From Alphaproteobacteria bacterium (lineage in GTDB: Bacteria > Pseudomonadota > Alphaproteobacteria > Rs-D84 > CACZYB01): a stretch of DNA of 64,000 nt. The stretch lies in NCBI GenBank assembly GCA_017938435.1, contig JAGBBO010000037.1:1-64000 (forward strand). The letters are read 5' to 3'. The notes below the pieces were generated by a model. That model did no database searches. It worked only from the letters and a program-made list of their open reading frames with translations, and was not told the DNA's origin. Positions 621 through 40,963 of this stretch are shown here, piece after piece; the stretch's first letter is position 1; each line of letters starts with the position of its first letter. The position numbers were made by a program, and so were the translations under genes.

Positions 621-792
621 TGAAGTGGCGGAGGGTACAGGGAGCCGGAGTAGATAAACAAGGGATTTCCCCGCAGTTTATCGTTTACGAGGCGAAAGGG
701 GCCCACCTATGGTGGGAATATCCACTCGAACGACAAACAAAAAGTTTGTCCTGTTAATTAACGACAATACTAAATTCTTTACCAAACATTTA
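621..792 (-). repeat. tRNA-Ser-associated structured repeat, unit 1 (172 bp)
   Basis: First of two tandem units lying 3' of tRNA-Ser(GCU) on the tRNA strand. Bases 621-641 are identical to 962-982, which is the last 16 nt of the tRNA including CCA plus 5 nt of flank. Read on the minus strand the unit contains the hairpins GACAAAC/GTTTGTC, CCCACC/GGTGGG and a nested GATAAAC..GTTTATC stem. No open reading frame of note is present. It differs from unit 2 at only a few positions. It could be a structured RNA co-transcribed with the tRNA, or a tiny integrated element bounded by copies of the tRNA 3' end. Confidence 0.85.
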
Positions 793-961
793 TGAAGTGG
801 CGGAGGGTACAGGGAGCCGGAGTAGATAAACAAGGGGTTCCCCGCAGTTTATCGTTTACGAGGCGAAAGGGGCCCACCTATGGTGGGAATATCCACTCGA
901 ACGACAAACAAAGTTTGTCCTGTTAATTAACGACAATACTAAAGTCTTTACCAAATATTTA
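793..961 (-). repeat. tRNA-Ser-associated structured repeat, unit 2 (169 bp)
   Basis: Second tandem unit, directly abutting tRNA-Ser(GCU). It begins with the same 21-bp copy of the tRNA 3' end (793-813). Compared with unit 1, the GACAAAC/GTTTGTC hairpin keeps its stem and changes loop length from 5 to 3 A residues. The nested stem changes from GGGA..TCCC to GGGG..CCCC and still pairs. Variation that spares the stems suggests that the RNA or DNA hairpins matter. Confidence 0.85.
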
Positions 962-966
962 TGAAG

Positions 967-1054
967 TGGCGGAGGGTACAGGACTCGAACCTGTGGACCA
1001 GTATTACCGGTCACGGATTAGCAATCCGCTGCATTACCGCTCTGCCAACCCTCC
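967..1054 (-). tRNA. tRNA-Ser (anticodon GCU)
   Basis: The 88-nt minus-strand cloverleaf has a GGAGGGT acceptor arm, a long variable arm typical of serine tRNAs, a T-loop TTCGAGT, and an encoded CCA. The anticodon loop TTGCTAA gives GCU, which reads AGC and AGU codons. Its 3' end is the source of the sequence copied in the repeats to the left. Confidence 0.95.
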
Positions 1055-9934: not shown

Positions 9935-10011
9935 GCACCCATAGCTCAGTTGAATAGAGCGTTGGTTTCCGGAACCAAAGGTCAGAGGTTTGAATCCTCT
10001 TGGGTGCACCA
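9935..10011 (+). tRNA. tRNA-Arg (anticodon CCG)
   Basis: A 77-nt cloverleaf with acceptor GCACCCA/TGGGTGC, D-arm AGCTCAGTTGAATAGAGC, anticodon loop TTCCGGA giving CCG, T-loop TTTGAAT and encoded CCA. It has its own promoter. Part of it is duplicated downstream (10027-10191). Confidence 0.95.
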
Positions 10012-10026
10012 AGTATTTTTTCCATC

Positions 10027-10191
10027 GCGTTGGTTTCACTTACCACTTTTTATACTCTTGTCTTTCACGGGTGGGCGTGGCTATAACCTATTTATTCTAA
10101 ACTCCTCGCTAACACCGCTCGTCATTAAGAATAACTACGGTCATAGTCCGGAACCAAAGGTCAGAGGTTTGAATCCTCTTGGGTGCACCAA
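10027..10191 (+). repeat. Partial, interrupted copy of tRNA-Arg(CCG)
   Basis: Bases 10147-10191 are identical to the tRNA from the anticodon loop through CCA plus one base (9968-10012). Bases 10027-10036 match the anticodon-stem 5' strand (9959-9968). The two pieces meet exactly at the anticodon loop but are separated by 110 bp (10037-10146). This insert holds the motif at 10105-10121, which is also found in the tRNA-Gln repeats. The D-arm and acceptor 5' strand are absent, so it cannot be a working tRNA. Confidence 0.8.
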
Positions 10192-38632: not shown

Positions 38633-38782
38633 TTCGTTGCCGAAGCCTCTCACGCCTATAACTTCATGGCTGGGGTGGCTGGATTTGACACCGAACCCAG
38701 CTGTTCTTGATTTCGAGCGTTGTTAGCGAGAAATCCTAGAATTGCTTGTTCGTTGCCGAAGCCTCTCACGCCTATAGCTTCA
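38633..38782 (-). repeat. tRNA-Gln(CUG)-associated repeat unit
   Basis: Bases 38633-38685 repeat at 38749-38801 (period 116 bp) with one mismatch. The repeat includes TGGCTGGGGTGGCTGGATT, the 3' end of tRNA-Gln with CCA. The intervening core (38686-38748) contains the motif at 38714-38730 shared with the tRNA-Gln(UUG) and tRNA-Arg elements, and an imperfect palindrome around CTAG. No reading frame. Confidence 0.85.
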
Positions 38783-40714: not shown

Positions 40715-40963
40715 AAAATTCGAAGTGGCTGAGGTATGGTTGGATTTGACACCGAACCCAGCTGTTCTTGATTTCGAGCGTTGTTAGCGAGAAATTCTAG
40801 AATTGCTCGTTCGTTGCCGAAGCCTGTAGCAGTAAAAACTTGAAGTGGCTGGGGTGGCTGGATTTGACACCGAACCCAGCTATTCTTGATTTCGAGCGTT
40901 GTTAGTGAGAAATCCTAGAATTGCTCGTTCGTTGCCGAAGCCTGTAGCAGTAAAAATTCGAAG
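40715..40963 (-). repeat. tRNA-Gln(UUG)-associated tandem repeats (two units)
   Basis: Units 40726-40845 (120 bp) and 40846-40963 (118 bp) each begin, in plus orientation, with a copy of the tRNA-Gln 3' end; the outer copy is mutated (TGGCTGAGGTATGGTTGG). The core between is almost the same as at the tRNA-Gln(CUG) locus, but the 20-nt flank next to CCA differs and is specific to this locus. The core holds the palindrome AATTCTAGAATT (40793-40804) and the shared motif (40775-40791 and 40893-40909). Confidence 0.88.

Follow-up and report, generated by a model that had tools for sequence, protein, structure and literature searches.

What occupies the DNA directly downstream of the tRNA-Ser(GCU) gene in the 64,000-nucleotide stretch analysed here (the window), and why does it repeatedly end in the tail of that tRNA? 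Two answers had been offered in a sequence-only reading of the locus: a small structured RNA transcribed together with the tRNA, whose tRNA-like 3' ends would act as signals for processing or as decoys, or a minimal element that had integrated more than once at the 3' end of the tRNA. A direct sequence match showed that the 21-mer TGAAGTGGCGGAGGGTACAGG is present exactly at 621–641, 793–813, and 962–982, the last of these copies comprising the final 16 nt of tRNA-Ser(GCU) and 5 nt of flank. The intervals between the copies form two near-identical units of 172 and 169 bp (Table 1). The list of open reading frames contained none of at least 60 aa between 585 and 1114; the units are thus protein-less and carry no integrase gene. 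Each unit contains three hairpins, and the differences between the units include an AAAAA/AAA loop and the pairing-neutral exchange of GGGATTTCCCC and GGGGTTCCCC. All of these features had been described correctly from the letters alone. Folding of one unit on the tRNA strand gave −50.3 kcal/mol (z = −3.3 relative to dinucleotide shuffles), which was better than 200 of 200 shuffles. A search of the window and several units against Rfam returned only the tRNA and chance matches below the cutoff. The locus has the layout of a tRNA-integrated island, with an intact tRNA at one end and a displaced tRNA 3' fragment at the other.

Table 1. Positions in the window of the tRNA-Ser(GCU) locus, its component parts, and the units behind other tRNAs
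Feature	Position	Strand	Remark
tRNA-Ser(GCU)	967..1054	-	Gene upstream of the units; 3' end in the 962-982 21-mer
Unit 1, 169 bp	798..966	-	Starts one base past the CCA of the tRNA and runs through the CCA of the following 3'-end copy
Unit 2, 172 bp	626..797	-	
Copy 2 of tRNA 3' end + 5-nt flank, exact	793..813	-	
Copy 3 of tRNA 3' end + flank, exact	621..641	-	Distal, displaced
Type-1 core of unit 1	814..894	+	Family consensus on + strand, opposite to tRNA
Type-1 core of unit 2	642..723	+	R1 match 633-731; sequence is part of the model
Helix P2, unit 1	825..853	+	GATAAAC...GTTTATC
Helix P2, unit 2	653..682	+	
Helix P3, unit 1	873..887	+	CCCACC TAT GGTGGG
Helix P3, unit 2	702..716	+	
T-loop copy GTTCGAGT bordering core 1	895..902	-	tRNA's own is GGTTCGAGTCC
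T-loop copy GTTCGAGT bordering core 2	724..731	-	
Hairpin P0, unit 1	903..919	-	GACAAAC TTT GTTTGTC
Hairpin P0, unit 2	732..750	-	GACAAAC TTTTT GTTTGTC
Segment B, unit 1 (putative)	913..924	-	Short inverted degenerate T-arm copy (AACAGGACAAAC), predicted from anatomy of other units
Segment B, unit 2 (putative)	744..755	-	Likewise predicted
Unit behind tRNA-Arg(CCG), 179 bp	10012..10190	+	44-nt copy; non-type-1 core
Unit behind tRNA-Gln(CTG), 116 bp	38667..38782	-	Non-type-1 core
Unit behind tRNA-Gln(TTG), 118 bp	40846..40963	-	Core type as in Gln-CTG

The phenomenon described for tRNA-Ser(GCU) is real but is not confined to that gene. In the window, tRNA-Arg(CCG) (9935–10011) is followed by 44 nt copied from its own 3' half, beginning at the anticodon loop and ending at 10190, and 19-nt copies of their own ends lie behind tRNA-Gln(CTG) (at +116, ending at 38667) and tRNA-Gln(TTG) (at +118, ending at 40846). 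Altogether, 6 of the 31 tRNAs of this genome, namely Ser-GCU, Arg-CCG, the two Gln, Asn-GTT, and Glu-CTC, have a nearby downstream copy of their own end. Upstream copies were found for none of the 31 tRNAs, the only match, for a tRNA-Gly, being another tRNA-Gly gene. The Arg-CCG unit and both Gln units share a second core with a CTCGCTAACAACGCTCG-like hairpin, which is also present behind tRNA-Glu(CTC) of this genome.

When a unit was used as a query, only weak matches were obtained in relatives; these shared the motif CGAAAGGGGCCC-hairpin-GGGAAT, each within a wider frame. With the hairpin left variable, 51 of 201 genomes of the order contained the motif, and the reversed control gave no match. 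Among the named genomes, nearly all real matches came from gut Alphaproteobacteria assemblies; about 19 of 103 named contig stretches, in which the surrounding consensus was absent, were left out as chance pattern matches. An alignment of 41 divergent cores of this kind (type 1; folded, about 75–95 bp) was used to build the model R1. The alignment supports three helices, P1, P2, and P3, of which P1 is the weakest (69% paired). Overall, 87.0% of the pair cells were paired, compared with 71.4% in shuffles, and cells changed on both sides numbered 160 versus 54. The covariation score was 0.442, compared with 0.177 for shuffled and at most 0.108 for slid versions, although the excess over the slid versions is partly built in, since the structure was read from the same 41 sequences, which does not apply to the double changes. 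Both window cores show the conserved P2 and P3 helices and match R1, at 805–902 with E = 4.4e-15 (by a model that includes the window copy 633–731) and at 633–731 with E = 1.5e-14 (a sequence itself in the model). Thus, selection on structure, which had been proposed from two near-identical copies and was weakly founded on these alone, is borne out by the 41 divergent relatives. Comparison of G-U with A-C appositions as a test of the strand was uninformative over all helices (19 versus 21); after removal of two poorly aligned helices, the values of 18 versus 6 weakly favoured the consensus strand, the sequences not being independent.

The search for relatives and the covariance model, both suggested by the sequence-only reading, were productive. 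R1 matched 143 of the 191 genomes of the order (101 of the 126 good ones); among about 380 other alphaproteobacterial genomes, about 10 had matches, several of them again at tRNA ends. A lack of relatives and of covariation would have counted against the earlier reading; given these 143 genomes and the strong covariation, the opposite was found. The units share a common frame, in which the tRNA 3' end is followed, usually after a terminator-like hairpin, by an inverted degenerate copy of the T-arm, the direct start of a T-arm (GGTTCG), the core, and a second stretch from T-loop to CCA. Several unlike core types occupy this same frame. Outside the window genome, we collected 98 type-1 units, 67 of which had a tRNA upstream, representing about 19 isoacceptors; in 52 of these 67, the terminal 19 nt of the unit's own tRNA were repeated at its end (44 exactly, 8 with one mismatch). 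The other 31 units were in part cut by contig ends or situated in arrays, while others lay in REP-like palindromes without a tRNA. Relatives of the core were found behind at least 20 tRNA types, among them Glu, Arg, Thr, Ser, Tyr, Leu, Pro, Lys, Gln, His, Asp, and Gly tRNAs.

The single-contig genome of Candidatus Enterousia intestinigallinarum (G027) gave a similar picture: 10 of its 45 tRNAs were followed within 500 bp by a copy of their own end with one mismatch or fewer, no tRNA was preceded by such a copy, and additional tRNAs had more diverged or otherwise placed copies. In the same genome, tRNA-Leu(CAA) at 303512 and tRNA-Gly(GCC) at 1001196 are followed by tandem units of 115 bp and 95 bp whose cores are different and shorter, and the copy at tRNA-Leu(CAA) resumes in the acceptor stem, not in the T-loop.

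The closest known parallel is provided by the tyrT/tyrV repeats of Escherichia coli, which likewise consist of tandem units of about 170–180 bp directly behind a tRNA, terminating in a tRNA end with CCA. The final 19 nt of E. coli tyrV are repeated at precisely +178, +356, and +534; at tRNA-Ser(GCU) of the window, the exact copies comprise 16 nt of the tRNA. As in the E. coli units, those of the order run from an inverted degenerate T-arm copy through the direct start of a T-arm and a structured core to a tRNA end, and the Rfam model RtT (RF00391) closes the inverted segment on the tRNA end. The type-1 core of the window differs in sequence from that of E. coli and here runs in the opposite orientation to the tRNA. 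No RtT match was obtained between 560 and 1120 at E values up to 5; since the model is silent on the type-1 units of the window, these units share the layout of RtT but not its sequence family. In 28 of the 191 genomes of the order, RtT gave weak matches below the cutoff (best 29 versus 45 bits) to other core types, and all eight loci fetched, as well as the one in this genome, proved to be tRNA 3'-end units. RtT members have been described at several tRNAs in Pasteurellaceae (PMC4986893), and a similarity of rtT to BIMEs has been pointed out in E. coli (PMC2965389). The E. coli rtT unit (query L255:1367-1544) was present in 4696 of 5426 E. coli genomes, at 1 to 9 places each, 18 places being on plasmids; its copy number varied between strains.

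This precedent bears directly on the first of the two answers, according to which each unit is a structured small RNA of about 170 nt, made with the tRNA, ending in the copied CCA and processed free, the repeats being gene copies kept for the RNA. In E. coli, the annotated RttR RNA (171 nt) starts at +8 behind tyrV, and its end coincides precisely with the CCA of the first copy of the tRNA-Tyr end; rtT is reportedly freed from the tyrT transcript and tied to the stringent response (Bosl and Kersten, 1991, as cited in PMC4986893 and PMC2965389). The strong covariation of the 41 cores, the fold of the window unit on the tRNA strand, and the tandem GA within P2 of most type-1 cores, which recalls the helix framing a tandem GA in RtT (PMC8250186), all agree with an RNA. 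In addition, no terminator was found in the window between tRNA-Ser(GCU) and the unit on the tRNA strand. However, a terminator-like hairpin stands at that place in most other genomes of the order, type-1 cores also occur at palindromes without a tRNA, and in the genus of the window the core runs against the direction of the tRNA, so that an RNA transcribed together with the tRNA would contain the family consensus in complementary form. Inversion and terminators weaken this explanation as a general one, but not the formation of an RNA as a by-product; by analogy, an rtT-like product from the units is possible. We regard a role as RNA genes as a serious but rather doubtful explanation. An argument for co-transcription based on terminators was dropped, given that the window has none while most relatives do, and no test result supports our first idea that the units are guide-bearing RNAs.

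The core itself appears to move between tRNA genes, and four observations point to this. Firstly, similar cores are shared by different tRNAs with differing flanks: those behind Leu-CAA and His-GTG are 92% identical, and those behind Glu-TTC and Arg-TCT 88% identical over 92 columns. On the core tree, 18 changes of tRNA label were counted, compared with a minimum of 12 and with 23.9 in shuffles, and the supported branches alone force at least three changes for tRNA-Glu. The labels are nevertheless partly clustered by tRNA, so much of the history of the core was vertical. Secondly, a locus of the same genus (L316, 1376–1700) has two unlike cores head-to-tail inside one copied tRNA-Phe 3' half, both in one T-loop and with no tRNA end between them. 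Thirdly, type-1 cores lie in the loops of REP-like palindromes without a tRNA (L303, L105, L127, and L120), of the form GTCATTGCCGGRCTTG...CCCGGCAATCC, whose arms vary while their complementarity is kept; in the genome G466, R1 has ten matches. Fourthly, each of the five loci seen from the genus of the window has its core in the orientation opposite to that of the tRNA, which is not the case elsewhere. In two members of this genus (G002 and G004), the same tRNA-Ser is present but no units follow it.

Such patterns could also be produced without a mobile core if the tRNA 3' half and its flank were duplicated in tandem by slippage or unequal exchange, the palindrome being kept as a terminator and the cores being shared by gene conversion, which between units could mimic movement. 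The near-identity of the units within arrays, their terminators, and the resemblance of the inverted T-arm copy to a template-switch product are in line with such a history. It accounts poorly, however, for the recurrence of one structured core behind unrelated tRNAs with differing flanks and for the two unlike cores in a single T-loop of L316, and we consider it improbable.

The second answer, a repeatedly integrated minimal element, fits best, because the same core occurs behind many tRNAs with matching ends, in two orientations, twice in one T-loop, and in palindromes without a tRNA; the inverted core also speaks against an orientation-dependent, co-transcribed function. Specifically, the units may represent a non-autonomous, protein-less mini-element that integrates at the T-loop and regenerates the end of the tRNA, a reading to which we give about even chances of being right or wrong. 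The folded core would enter a tRNA 3' half at the border of the T-loop; the tRNA would remain intact, with the element providing its 3' end, while the displaced copy, from the T-loop or T-stem to CCA (here 16 nt and 5 nt of flank), would stay on the far side. Repeated insertion, or unequal crossing-over among the copied tRNA ends, would give rise to tandem arrays. Integrases are known to cross over at both the T-loop and the anticodon loop, and a loop flanked by palindromic stems, with the tRNA end restored, is the seat used by tyrosine integrases that target tRNA genes (PMC4383910). The likeliest chemistry would be conservative site-specific recombination in the T-loop by an enzyme acting in trans, and the palindromic T-stem flanks may resemble the paired binding sites of a tyrosine recombinase. 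The presence of several quite different core types in the same bracket is not predicted by a single mini-element and argues against it.

None of the genes for tyrosine recombinases, reverse transcriptases, or Y1 transposases tracks the units. PF00589 is near universal, and in G027 no more than two intact-looking PF00589 loci stand against at least 10 units. PF00078 is absent from this genome and from G027, and PF01797 (Y1/RAYT) was found in 4 of the 191 genomes of the order and not in the present one. On viral contigs, the first core pattern yielded only three copies of one unrelated contig stretch and four further core patterns had no match; blastn against phage and plasmid collections identified no carrier. 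Since no enzyme tracks the units, we infer, beyond the movement of the core, the type of reaction, that is, spread by DNA insertion rather than by copying or gene conversion, and likewise the kind of enzyme. In this genome (G000), two large PF00589 proteins (open frames of 662 and 505 aa, on C37 and C16; L232 and L233) are encoded close to tRNA-Ser(CGA) and tRNA-Leu(TAA).

With Islander-type islands and prophages, the units have in common a regenerated tRNA, a displaced 3' fragment, and a crossover in the T-loop or anticodon loop (PMC4383910); unlike these islands, they measure only about 0.1–0.2 kb, have no integrase, and place the same core at many tRNA species. They are short, structured, repeated, and protein-less like REP/BIME sequences, and type-1 cores are also seated in REP-like palindromes, whereas the Y1/RAYT transposase of REP systems is missing from 187 of 191 genomes. 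A further resemblance is to integron cassettes, which likewise form arrays of short, palindrome-bordered units, some of them containing ORFs; the seat here is a tRNA 3' end. The possibility that the units are ORF-less cassettes of integron-like arrays seated at tRNA ends would agree with ORF-bearing intervals between tRNA-end copies or units in L088 (1–3200), L056 (1–2800), and L065 (at tRNA-Glu of G027). However, we consider it very unlikely: only a handful of such loci were seen, the intervals could be ordinary insertions into arrays, and the PF00589 matches were counted as a family, with no integron integrase identified. The ORFs of the intervals include one GNAT acetyltransferase and one with weak peptidoglycan-binding and YkuD/Tlde1 matches.

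Beyond the mini-element at tRNA ends, we can offer only as a speculation, and one more probably wrong than right, that the cores form a class of protein-less mobile elements of about 75–95 bp, recognised by their structure and inserting in hairpin loops (mainly T-loops, but also REP-like palindromes) across Alphaproteobacteria, with E. coli tyrT/rtT as one surviving case.

In conclusion, the tyrT repeats of E. coli have so far been a nearly isolated curiosity with an RNA of uncertain role. One order now shows the same layout behind many tRNAs in most of its genomes, with several cores that are unrelated to one another, and this turns a single locus into a comparative system. It has thus become testable whether such units serve as genes for an RNA or were left behind by a mobile element addressed by the tRNA tail, and fragments of tRNA tails in genomes need not signal large islands.
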